Assembly: GCF_009695545.1 (NCBI RefSeq)
Contig: NZ_VUNS01000008.1
Location: 62,001-126,000 of the forward strand
DNA from: Victivallis lenta
GTDB taxonomy: Bacteria > Verrucomicrobiota > Lentisphaeria > Victivallales > Victivallaceae
Direction of reading: 5' to 3'
DNA length: 64,000 nucleotides
Shown here: positions 58,030 to 62,268 of the stretch, one piece after another
Layout: each line of letters starts with the position of its first letter
Position numbering within the stretch: position 1 is the stretch's first letter
The notes under the pieces: generated by a model
What the model was told of the DNA's origin: nothing
Databases searched by the model: none
The model's input: only the letters and a program-made list of their open reading frames with translations
Position numbers and translations under genes: made by a program

Positions 58030-59793
58030 TCATTTCCGGAGCCGGAATCCGTTCCGGCCGCCGATTTCGGCTCCGTCGAACTTCTGCATCCGGCTGCTTC
58101 CGGCGGCGGAATCGACGGCTTCCACTTCAAACCCGTCCGCAGAGTACGCCAGCGGACCGCCGGCAGGGTCCGCCAGCAGCTCGGCGGAGAGGCCGGACAC
58201 ATCCGCGAGCGTCTCCGGGAAGCCGCCCCGCGCTTTCCGGCTGCGGTCCAGCGCAAGCGCGACCCGCGCCGAGCGCACCTTCCTCAGCAGGGCCACATAC
58301 CTGTCCATTTCGCCATTCACCTCCGAAAGGACGCTGACGACCGGCTCCGCGCCGAACGGCAACACCCGGAGCCACGCCGCAGCAGCCTCCAGCCGCTGCG
58401 GCTCCGAAACCGCGTTCCGGAACCGCTCCATCCCCTCCAGATACCAGAACTTGCAGCGGAACCGCGCCCACTGGAACGCCGGAAACAACCGGCTCACCCC
58501 GGAGAACCGGCCGGATGCACGGCTCCACTCGACCATCGGGTCGAGCCCTGAAATCAGGGAGAGCGCCACCTCCCCGCGCAACCCCTGCTCGAGATTCGCC
58601 GCCAGCTCTTTCTCCGAGGCAGCCAGGTCGGCGTCAAGCAGCCGCATCTCGCGATCCGAATGAATGCCGAACTCATTGACCACCCGCTCAAGCGCATCAA
58701 GACGGCGGGACTCCATCCCCATGACGACCATGCTGTAAATCAATGCGGGCTCCGCGCTCAGCTGACGGCGGAGATTTCCCCAGCCGGTCCAGCTTTCCCC
58801 GACCTGCCGGTCGTTGCCGATACTCGCGGCGGAGAGGAGCCGCAGCAGCTCCAGCCATTCAAGCTGCCGGTAACGCATGATCAGCTCCTGCGTGTCGCCG
58901 ACTCCTTCGAACCCTTTTGCCAGATCACAGCCGAGCCGGGCCGTCGGAATGCGTTCAAGCTCCGTGAGCTTCCGCATGGGAGCGTCCTGGTTGAATACGA
59001 ATTTCTCCATTTCGACATAGGCGTCGGGCGGCACGTTCTCAATCCACACCGGGGCCGCCAGCCTCGCCAAAGCGTCGGGAATCGCCGGAATCATCTTCCA
59101 TGCAGCGACCAGTTCCGCTCCGTTCTGCCCGTTCAGCCGGTAGCGCTTCGCCAGATCCGCCGCCGACACCGGCTCGGACGCGGTCTCCAACTGCGCCAGC
59201 TTCGCATCGCACATCCGCTCCGCACGTGAAGCTTCATATCGCACGACCCCCCAGGCGGCGATCGCAAGCACCAGCAGCAGAATCACTTTGCAGCGGATCG
59301 CCCACGGAACCAGGGAGTCCTGCGGAGACACCACGCGGACCACGGCCGAACGGACCAGCATCCCGGTCAGCAGCCAGATCAGAACCATCAGCAGCGCGGC
59401 GGTCCAGAAATTCATCACGCAGGCCAGGAAGGCCAGCGGCAATGCGATGTAATTCAGCCGCAGCGCATTCAGATAGCCCGGGTTCCGCCTCCGGATGAAC
59501 TCGAGCTGATCCCCCCAGAGCCGAAAAAACGAAAAGAATCCGTAGTATTCGGCATCGGCATCCGTCAGATTCTGCACGATGTTCGCCAGCTGCACATGGC
59601 TCCAGCGGAACCAGACCGCCAGCGCCAGAAACGCAAACATTGCAATCGCGCCGACTCCGGCGGCGCCGGCGGCGCCGGCACGCGGATCGGACAACGCCCA
59701 GAATCCGCCCAGCTGAAGCACGATCCACGGAACCGCCAGAAGCGCCGCCTGCCCCAGATTCGCCCTCGAAAGAGCACGCTTCAGATCACTCAC
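58030..59793 (-). CDS. hypothetical membrane protein downstream of ftsZ, 587 aa
   Basis: Not recognised. GTG start overlapping the ftsZ stop by 4 bp (GTGA). About four membrane helices in the first ~195 residues (AALLAVPWIVLQLGGFWAL, GAIAMFAFLALAVWF, LPLAFLACVMNFW, VILLLVLAIAAWGVV), then a long helical domain with Leu/Arg-rich segments and the C-terminal ARVALALDRSRKARGGFPETLADVSGLSAELLADP, a pattern seen in many secreted or membrane proteins of the PVC group. Tight coupling to ftsZ suggests a role at the division site or envelope (inference). Confidence 0.7.
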   Translation of the reverse strand: MSDLKRALSRANLGQAALLAVPWIVLQLGGFWALSDPRAGAAGAAGVGAIAMFAFLALAVWFRWSHVQLANIVQNLTDADAEYYGFFSFFRLWGDQLEFIRRRNPGYLNALRLNYIALPLAFLACVMNFWTAALLMVLIWLLTGMLVRSAVVRVVSPQDSLVPWAIRCKVILLLVLAIAAWGVVRYEASRAERMCDAKLAQLETASEPVSAADLAKRYRLNGQNGAELVAAWKMIPAIPDALARLAAPVWIENVPPDAYVEMEKFVFNQDAPMRKLTELERIPTARLGCDLAKGFEGVGDTQELIMRYRQLEWLELLRLLSAASIGNDRQVGESWTGWGNLRRQLSAEPALIYSMVVMGMESRRLDALERVVNEFGIHSDREMRLLDADLAASEKELAANLEQGLRGEVALSLISGLDPMVEWSRASGRFSGVSRLFPAFQWARFRCKFWYLEGMERFRNAVSEPQRLEAAAAWLRVLPFGAEPVVSVLSEVNGEMDRYVALLRKVRSARVALALDRSRKARGGFPETLADVSGLSAELLADPAGGPLAYSADGFEVEAVDSAAGSSRMQKFDGAEIGGRNGFRLRK

Positions 59794-60986
59794 TGTTCCA
59801 CCCCGCGTTTTCCGTTATCGATCGTGATGTTGCGCCTCTTGAAGGTCGGGACATCGAGATCGTCATTCCCCCATTTCACCTGCGGCCCGCGCTCCATCAC
59901 GCCTTTGGAGATCGGTTCCAGCGGCAGGATCAACTGATCCGCATCGGCCGCATGCGCGGCGGCGCTCCGGGTGCGCTTCGGCGCCCGCTCGGAGCTGCTG
60001 CGCAGGAGCTCGCTCGCCTCGCTCTCCGCATCGAACCTGACCGTCACGGCGGAGAGCATGAGCTTGCCCGCCCACTCCTCGCCGGTCGCGGCGCCGACGA
60101 TCAGCCGCGTCTCCGGCTTCACCTGACGTCCGGCGAGCTCCAGCAGCTGCTTCGTCTCGCCAAGCGACAGCTCCGGGCCGCCGAGCAGCGTGAAGATGAC
60201 CGCATCCGCTTCGCCGAGCTTATCCGCCCCGCCGAGCAGCGGAGAGTGCAGCAGCCGTTCCATCGCAGCCTCGCCGCGGTTTTCTCCGTCGATCTCGCCC
60301 GACGCCACGCCGACACCGATGCTGCAGAAGCTCTTTTTCCGGCGCAGGAGCGTGATGAAATTGCCGAAATCGGCCGCCAGCAGATTTCCGTGCAGCAGCA
60401 CCATGGTCAGCGCCAGCACCGTCCGAGACAACTCCTGATCGGCCAGCTTGAACGCATTCGACAGCGGCGTCGTCGACTCCAGCACCGAAAACAGCAGATC
60501 ATTCGGCAGACAGATCACCGCGTCGGCCAGGCCGAGCAGCTCCTCCTTCACCGTATCTTCGGCGATCTTCCGCTTGCTGTGTCCCTCAAGCGTAAACGGC
60601 AGCGAGACGAAAAACAGCGTCGGGATCTCCAGTTTGCGCGCGACGGAGAGCACGACCGGCATTCCGCCGGAAGCGGTTCCGCCGCCGAGTCCGCCGATGA
60701 CCAGAAGAAACGGCACGCCCTCAAGCAGCTTTTCGATCCGGCTGCGTTCATGCGCAACGACACGCTGACCGTCGAGCACGCTGCCGCCGCAGCCGCGGCC
60801 GGCACGCCAGCGCGCTCCGGCCAGCAGCCGCGCCTCCTCCGGCAGTCCCGACCGCTCGAGACCGGCGGAATCGCTGTCTATGGCGAGGAGGCGCAAAGGA
60901 GCCGAAAGCGGATTCTCCCGCAGGATGCCGACGATCCGGCAGCCGGTTCCGCCGATTCCGAGTACGGTGATTTTCTTCTGTTCCAT
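59790..60986 (-). CDS. ftsZ: cell division protein FtsZ, divergent
   Basis: 398 residues. Tubulin signature GGLGGGTASGGMP (T4 loop, ~98-110), T1 loop GIGGTGCRI, and the C-terminal FtsA-binding peptide DDLDVPTFKRR (376-386). The synergy (T7) loop, NVDFAD in typical FtsZ, reads AADFGN at 204-209: the first Asp (206) is kept but the Asn and second Asp are replaced, so GTP hydrolysis in the polymer may be altered. Directly after ftsA (4-bp gap), which with the C-terminal peptide supports FtsZ rather than a tubulin-like paralogue. Forms the cytokinetic ring. Confidence 0.88.
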   Translation of the reverse strand: MEQKKITVLGIGGTGCRIVGILRENPLSAPLRLLAIDSDSAGLERSGLPEEARLLAGARWRAGRGCGGSVLDGQRVVAHERSRIEKLLEGVPFLLVIGGLGGGTASGGMPVVLSVARKLEIPTLFFVSLPFTLEGHSKRKIAEDTVKEELLGLADAVICLPNDLLFSVLESTTPLSNAFKLADQELSRTVLALTMVLLHGNLLAADFGNFITLLRRKKSFCSIGVGVASGEIDGENRGEAAMERLLHSPLLGGADKLGEADAVIFTLLGGPELSLGETKQLLELAGRQVKPETRLIVGAATGEEWAGKLMLSAVTVRFDAESEASELLRSSSERAPKRTRSAAAHAADADQLILPLEPISKGVMERGPQVKWGNDDLDVPTFKRRNITIDNGKRGVEQ

Positions 60987-60990
60987 AGTT

Positions 60991-62268
60991 TCAGCCCCGC
61001 AATGCGCCTTTGAAATTCTGCCACCCCATCCGGGTCTTGTTCAGCACGCCGTCCACCACATCGATCAGGCTGCCGACCATGCCGCGGCCGCTCTGTCCCG
61101 CGTTCAGTTCGTTGTAATACCCTGCGATTTTCAGCGCGCCCCAGATCGTGCTGCAGCGCGGCGTATCAAGCCCGGTCAGAGCACCGCCCGCCTCGAACGG
61201 CTGCCCGATCCGGCACGACATGTCGAACACCTCGCGGAAAATCGGCGCCGTCCGTTCGAACAATGCGCCGCCCCCGGTCAGGACGCCGCCCGCGTCGAGG
61301 CTGCCGAGCGCTCCCTGCGCCGCCGCCATCGACCGGATGATCTCGAAAATCTCGCGCAGCCGAGCATCGATGATGACTTCGAACGACGGCAGCGGAATCT
61401 TCCGCCCCCGGCCGGTCGAACTCGGAAACTCCATATATTCGCGGCGCTCCTGCATGGCGCGCTGCAGCGTCTTCTCCTCGATCAGCTTGCGGCAGACGTC
61501 GATGTGCAAATCGAGTCCGAGCGAAAGGTCATTGCAGACATGATCGAAACCGATCTGAAGCACGCCGGAAGCCTGCACGCCGGAGTTGTATTCGACCACG
61601 AATTCGGTAGTTCCGGCGCCGAGGTCGACGAGCAGCACGCCGTGCTCCCGCTCCTCGTCGGAGAGGATGCCGAAATCGTCGGCCAGCGGCGAAAAAGCAA
61701 CTTCGATCGCCGCCTCCTCGAATCCGGAGTCGCGAACGATCGAGCGGAAATTCTCAAGCCGGGCCGCATCGGCATGCACCACATGGACATACGCCTCGAG
61801 CTTGCTCGCGGTGTGGTTCAGCGGATTGCGAATCCGGCGCTCATCGATCGTAAAATAGGATTCGGAGCTGTTGATGATCTCGCGCCCGGTGGCGAGGTGG
61901 AGCACCCGCGCGTTTTCATGCGCCTCGATCCGCTCCTTGTTGGTCACCTTGTGTTCGTCATTCCTGACCACCACCGAGCCGATGCCCTGAAACGCCTCCA
62001 TCCGGCAGCCGGTCACCGCGACAACCACGACCTTCGTGCTGTTCAGCAGCCCGTCCGAAGCGCTCTCGGCATCCGCGATGGCGTTGCCGAGCTGCTCGAA
62101 GGCGAGGTCCATATCCTCAATCTCGCCCTTGACCACCGAACCGGCGGAAGGGGCGGAACCGCGCCCGACCACATTTACGCGCCCGTCCGGCCCGGCTTCA
62201 CCGACCAGCACATTGATCTTCGATGTGCCGATTTCGATCGCGGTGACGATGTCCCTGGTATGAAACAT
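60991..62268 (-). CDS. ftsA: cell division protein FtsA
   Basis: 425 residues. Actin fold: IVTAIEIGTSKI (phosphate 1), VLLVDLGAGTTEF (phosphate 2), GGVLTGGGALFER (adenosine), and the C-terminal amphipathic helix GWQNFKGALRG that tethers FtsZ to the membrane. Good Shine-Dalgarno (GGAGGAG). Upstream of ftsZ in the usual order; a -10 (TATATT, 62312-62317) lies in its 114-bp leader. Confidence 0.95.
   Translation of the reverse strand: MFHTRDIVTAIEIGTSKINVLVGEAGPDGRVNVVGRGSAPSAGSVVKGEIEDMDLAFEQLGNAIADAESASDGLLNSTKVVVVAVTGCRMEAFQGIGSVVVRNDEHKVTNKERIEAHENARVLHLATGREIINSSESYFTIDERRIRNPLNHTASKLEAYVHVVHADAARLENFRSIVRDSGFEEAAIEVAFSPLADDFGILSDEEREHGVLLVDLGAGTTEFVVEYNSGVQASGVLQIGFDHVCNDLSLGLDLHIDVCRKLIEEKTLQRAMQERREYMEFPSSTGRGRKIPLPSFEVIIDARLREIFEIIRSMAAAQGALGSLDAGGVLTGGGALFERTAPIFREVFDMSCRIGQPFEAGGALTGLDTPRCSTIWGALKIAGYYNELNAGQSGRGMVGSLIDVVDGVLNKTRMGWQNFKGALRG

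Follow-up and report, generated by a model that had tools for sequence, protein, structure and literature searches.

The window, a stretch of 64,000 nucleotides of Victivallis lenta DNA, carries ftsA and ftsZ one after the other on the minus strand, with 4 bases between the ftsA stop and the ftsZ start. The genes and features considered here are as follows.

60991..62268, minus strand: ftsA, 425 aa, immediately upstream of ftsZ (TIGR01174, 207 bits; cut-off 175.85)
59790..60986, minus strand: ftsZ, 398 aa, the only tubulin-superfamily gene found in the genome
60939..60959, minus strand: T1 glycine loop GIGGTGC, nucleotide binding
60861..60884, minus strand: T2 loop AIDSDSAG (E. coli AVNTDAQA), Mg-site D45 kept, N43D and Q47A
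60663..60695, minus strand: T4 glycine loop GGLGGGTASGG (E. coli AGMGGGTGTGA), one glycine of the tubulin signature changed
60567..60587, minus strand: T5/H5 EGHSKRK, E138 kept, R142 replaced by K with an R one residue later
60498..60509, minus strand: T6 LPND, guanine-binding N165 kept
60360..60377, minus strand: T7 synergy loop AADFGN (E. coli NVDFAD), residues 204-209
59865..59909, minus strand: extension 5′ of the tail, SKGVMERGPQVKWGN, class-wide, predicted to be ordered (block pLDDT 84-88)
59832..59864, minus strand: C-terminal conserved peptide DDLDVPTFKRR, the FtsA-binding tail

A PF00091 search of the Victivallis genome (99.9% complete) returned a single match, the ftsZ at 59790-60986, and no further tubulin-like gene was detected in this genome with PF00091 or with a profile built for the second tubulin described below; the idea of a second, canonical FtsZ elsewhere in it was rejected on these searches. 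The protein scored 69.5 bits against PF00091 (cut-off 33) and 40.1 bits against PF12327, the FtsZ C-terminal domain (cut-off 27). Its score of 162.4 bits against the FtsZ equivalog model TIGR00065 lay below the cut-off of 295.2, and it was therefore classed as a divergent FtsZ and not as a TIGR00065 equivalog; core identity with E. coli FtsZ was 28%. An AF2 model built on 48 sequences reached a mean pLDDT of 86.7, and T7 was one of the less confidently modelled stretches of its core (a single-sequence model, with a pLDDT of only 34.6, was discarded), and in a Foldseek search with this model the best 50 matches listed were all FtsZ structures (E 1.3e-30). By its domains, predicted fold, gene order and C-terminal peptide, the protein is an FtsZ of the tubulin superfamily. 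Two FtsW/RodA-type proteins are encoded in the same genome. The first-pass annotation had judged that the protein outside T7, FtsA-binding tail included, looked functional, and the presence of DDLDVPTFKRR supports this judgement. Next to the tail, the segment at 59865-59909 and its counterparts share the motif SKGIF..T.PV...G, conserved through the class and partly through the phylum and predicted to be ordered; this segment may be an extra partner-binding site.

Among close relatives, the dN/dS of ftsZ was 0.06-0.24, a rough estimate since dS approached or exceeded 1 in several of the pairs, and Victivallis FtsZ is therefore under purifying selection. This bears on the idea of neutral decay, according to which the gene is heading for loss and its loop is meaningless. 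Verrucomicrobial FtsZs were placed among the most divergent in bacteria by an earlier survey (PMC9871819), and severe truncations occur in related families, as decay would have it; however, the low dN/dS and the conservation of tail and operon speak against it, as does the essentiality of ftsZ in Verrucomicrobium spinosum (PMC12283558), which is a comparison by phylum and not by T7 loop. We regard neutral decay as very improbable.

In an ungapped alignment with E. coli FtsZ, the T7 region changes from GLMNVDFADVRT to NLLAADFGNFIT, with N207A, V208A, A211G and D212N, and with D209 and F210 kept. The N-x-D-x-x-D of the canonical two-aspartate FtsZ GTPase is thus replaced by AADFGN at residues 204-209, just as the loop had first been read: Asn and second Asp exchanged, D209 retained. 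A sequencing or alignment error was rejected, since the alignment is ungapped and the identical loop recurs in independent genomes, namely in other Victivallales records (L005 and L184). Closer relatives carry AADFGS, and the cultured Victivallis vadensis DSM 14823 (L188) carries AADFNN. Outside T7 there are changes that the first-pass annotation did not mention: the NTDAQ of T2 has become DSDSA, R142 is K, and GGGTASG stands where the tubulin signature, given in PMC1845146 as [SAG]GGTG[SAT]G, would be expected.

Published work on the same residues allows some prediction of what these changes might do. In filaments of the S. aureus protein it is D210 (E. coli D209), and not D213, that moves to position the attacking water; D213 (E. 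coli D212) contributes the chemical surroundings, the K+ ion is coordinated by N208, with Q48 completing its site, and R143 has an assisting role (PMC8936486). The S. aureus substitutions D213N and N208L each abolished assembly (in vitro for D213N), and R143K assembled with reduced GTPase activity (PMC8936486). In E. coli, FtsZ-D212G retains at most about a tenth of the normal GTPase activity and forms static rings (PMC7320174), and it supports division given a suppressor mutation (PMC5405962). FtsZ(D212A) hydrolyses GTP much more slowly, and rings containing it finish division where wild-type FtsZ is present (PMC4383033). Slow GTP turnover, which the first-pass annotation had suggested, would by analogy with D212G (PMC7320174) and D213N (PMC8936486) be the likeliest consequence, and the suggestion was probably right. 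The E. coli D212G and D212A proteins resemble Victivallis FtsZ in having lost the second T7 aspartate and kept D209, but they are laboratory mutants in which N207, Q47 and R142 are intact, whereas in Victivallis the substitution occurs naturally, is fixed and comes together with others. These accompanying changes count against a slow enzyme: besides N207A and D212N, Q47 is absent and R142 is K, and with several interface residues gone together the activity could therefore be nil. The loss of assembly in S. aureus D213N, the equivalent of D212N here, and in N208L (PMC8936486) counts against it as well.

T7 loops were compared in 173 FtsZs from the class of Victivallis and the wider Verrucomicrobiota. 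As a control we used 31 FtsZs of another phylum, reached through the candidate-phylum locus L258 and made up of the 30 best PF00091 scorers plus one; being mostly top scorers, they serve as a canonical yardstick and not as a random draw of that phylum. L258 itself (Candidatus Uhrbacteria), a canonical FtsZ (GLVNVDFADVKA) that came up among the Lentisphaeria FtsZ profile matches, makes a useful outgroup. Results showed N207, D209 and D212 all present in 6/173 phylum FtsZs versus 31/31 controls, and N43, D45, Q47, E138, R142, N165, N207, D209, F210 and D212 were invariant throughout the 31 controls. Within the family of Victivallis (52 FtsZs), 21 have both acids, 21 have D209 alone, 10 have D212 alone and none has neither; the corresponding numbers for the other classes of the phylum (59 FtsZs) are 8, 34, 17 and 0. 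At least one acid at 209/212 is found in 52/52 members of the family, 28/31 of the rest of the order, 59/59 of the other classes and, family f10 left out, 23/24 of the rest of the class, which amounts to 162/166 phylum FtsZs outside f10. D209 and D212 have each been lost repeatedly across the phylum. Four FtsZs outside f10 have neither carboxylate, two of them (L070 and L089) in genomes that lack the second tubulin, and even one acid may therefore be dispensable. The residues of the GTP pocket are largely preserved in the family, with E138 in 52/52, D45 in 52/52 and N165 in 49/52 members. Four genomes (G074, G114, G134 and G136) gave no ftsZ match and no clear ftsA match; ftsZ loss was rejected in these cases, which were taken as assembly gaps.

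These counts reject a change specific to one lineage, which is how the first-pass annotation had seen the altered loop: T7 is degenerate across class and phylum, in many versions. The observation stands, and its interpretation was right about the loop and too narrow about the distribution. Other Verrucomicrobiota FtsZs share with the Victivallis protein a relaxed T7, usually with one carboxylate, and partly the C-terminal motif, but differ in the exact loop; NLDFATL retains N207 and D209, and in another group NLGLDEL has lost D209 and retained an acid at 212. A description of this T7 pattern was not found in the literature searched, of which coverage was incomplete, and an earlier notice is possible; one paper terms V. 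spinosum FtsZ canonical (PMC1845146).

The relation between the two losses was analysed with gain/loss models on a tree that left out the T7 columns, was based on one short divergent gene and had weak deep branches. Comparison of dependent with independent loss at 209/212 gave a likelihood-ratio statistic of 42.9 with a both-acid root, and simulated independent loss produced 31.7 ± 12.8 FtsZs without an acid versus 4 observed. With a flat root the statistic for 209/212 was 20.3. Of the 85 other pairs of acid-bearing columns used as controls (median 5.0, 95th percentile 12.2), 84 gave a lower value and one, the pair 299/301, a higher one. Because the values of the control pairs are themselves inflated, the nominal p-value is too optimistic and the control comparison is the trustworthy figure; on that basis the mutual dependence of the D209 and D212 losses is probably real. 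This trade-off weighs against normal turnover, in which other residues, such as the R beside K142 or interface acids elsewhere, would substitute for N207 and D212. R139 of Victivallis FtsZ is invariant in a seven-member class alignment, and the basic residue may therefore simply be shifted one position. However, the compensating residues that had been proposed for this lineage did not turn up elsewhere in the protein, no substitute acid being identified in a non-systematic look, and what was seen instead was the retention of at least one T7 carboxylate. Normal turnover thus seems to us quite improbable.

Sister families carry FtsZs that are more strongly reduced. In family f10, of the same class, FtsZ ends after helix H7 and continues as a linker and an FtsA-binding tail, the whole T7-bearing domain being absent (L306, L307, L308, L312-L315 and L334, as well as L175 in the closed genome G008). 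The N-terminal domain of these proteins is degenerate, their gene follows ftsA where this could be seen, and the full-length f10 FtsZs examined have no T7 acid. The f10 protein L331 (genome G036), of 247 aa, has the FtsZ tail GQNLDIPTFQRRG at its end and has lost the T4 glycine signature as well. In genus g44 (genomes G006, G010 and G017, 94-96% complete) the FtsZ of about 350 aa (L329, L330 and L333) has the GGGTGTG region deleted; its C-terminal domain remains, and so does a short tail, LKVPTYKR. PF00091 missed these proteins and TIGR00065 recognised them at 5e-7; the idea that g44 is FtsZ-less was rejected once a closer profile had found this highly divergent FtsZ.

With their C-terminal domain or GGGTGTG deleted and an FtsA-binding-like tail still in place, these proteins evidently represent FtsZ maintained in the class without catalysis. 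The Victivallis protein could by extension be a pseudo-GTPase that hydrolyses nothing, whether or not it binds GTP, and that acts as a scaffold linking FtsA to the septal machinery, with remodelling done by others. Its combination of N207A, D212N, Q47A and R142K fits such a role, given that the S. aureus counterpart of either of two of these positions, D213N or N208L, is enough on its own to abolish assembly (PMC8936486). On the other hand, the nucleotide loops are mostly kept and not one of the 52 family members lacks a T7 carboxylate, features that a dead enzyme would not need, and the most reduced FtsZs reside in genomes with a second tubulin, which Victivallis does not have. We consider a pseudo-GTPase unlikely.

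This second tubulin, of about 365 aa, has an intact TGGGTGNG and a T7-like DGHIDxEDF, and was found in about 57 of 149 class genomes (loci L168-L173, L297-L303, L324-L327, L341-L343 and L345). It occurs in members of most families f8-f23, f10 and g44 included, and in f3 and f6 of the order to which Victivallis belongs; the profile search did not find it in the Victivallis genome or genus. None of the Pfam or NCBIfam models reached its cut-off on this protein. In 4 of 5 loci examined the gene lies directly after one for a small protein, about 110 aa long, whose similarity to winged-helix proteins is weak and below threshold. The arrangement of a small-protein gene followed by a tubulin gene resembles plasmid tubR-tubZ, but in sequence comparison with solved structures the second tubulin gave weak matches, with FtsZ first and the TubZ-like RepX after it. 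The most reduced FtsZ forms coincide with the second tubulin, and the no-acid L070 and L089 occur without it; as f10 is one clade, only a handful of independent events link the two. A broader scenario may be drawn from these data, in which Verrucomicrobiota FtsZ was reduced to a one-carboxylate enzyme and its activity was then lost more than once in the class (the T7 domain in f10, GGGTGTG in g44), leaving FtsZ as a scaffold attached to FtsA; filament dynamics would have passed to a second tubulin encoded on the chromosome, whose catalytic motifs are intact, and Victivallis FtsZ would represent an intermediate. We put this forward tentatively, as a possibility on the doubtful side.

The explanation that we favour, with modest confidence, is that of a slow but working FtsZ. 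The Victivallis protein would be recruited by the adjacent FtsA as the one working division FtsZ of the organism, and would bind GTP and polymerise. At the interface active site, D209 would be the sole T7 carboxylate and would position the attacking water, with D212 replaced by Asn and the cation-coordinating N207 by Ala; slow hydrolysis would then give long-lived filaments. All this would take place within a relaxation extending across Verrucomicrobiota, from a requirement for two aspartates to one for keeping at least one. The explanation is based on the sequence, the single gene copy, synteny, purifying selection, the predicted FtsZ fold and the phylum-wide pattern; from these we infer GTP binding, polymerisation, slow hydrolysis and the role in division.

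Two known systems help to place the protein. The FtsZ homologue of Nitrosopumilus maritimus likewise has an altered GTP-binding motif and T7 loop (PMC3684127), but that archaeon is thought to divide by Cdv proteins, whereas in Victivallis no alternative division tubulin was found and most of the GTP site is kept. Canonical FtsZ, as in E. coli, B. subtilis and S. aureus, shares with it the fold, domain order, most GTP-binding loops, tail, ftsA-ftsZ order and D209, and differs from it at N207A, D212N, Q47A, N43D, R142K and GGGTASG. All in all, the Victivallis protein is best described as a one-carboxylate FtsZ amid phylum-wide relaxation, and as a variant of known FtsZ. The treadmilling of FtsZ, powered by GTP hydrolysis, is considered a core feature of bacterial division and, to our knowledge, both T7 aspartates are treated as invariant in FtsZ. 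A whole phylum, cultured gut bacteria included, appears to live largely with one T7 aspartate. How much hydrolysis division needs becomes testable with natural FtsZs, and the reduced FtsZs may supply steps on the way from canonical FtsZ to the FtsZ-free division of Planctomycetes and Chlamydiae.
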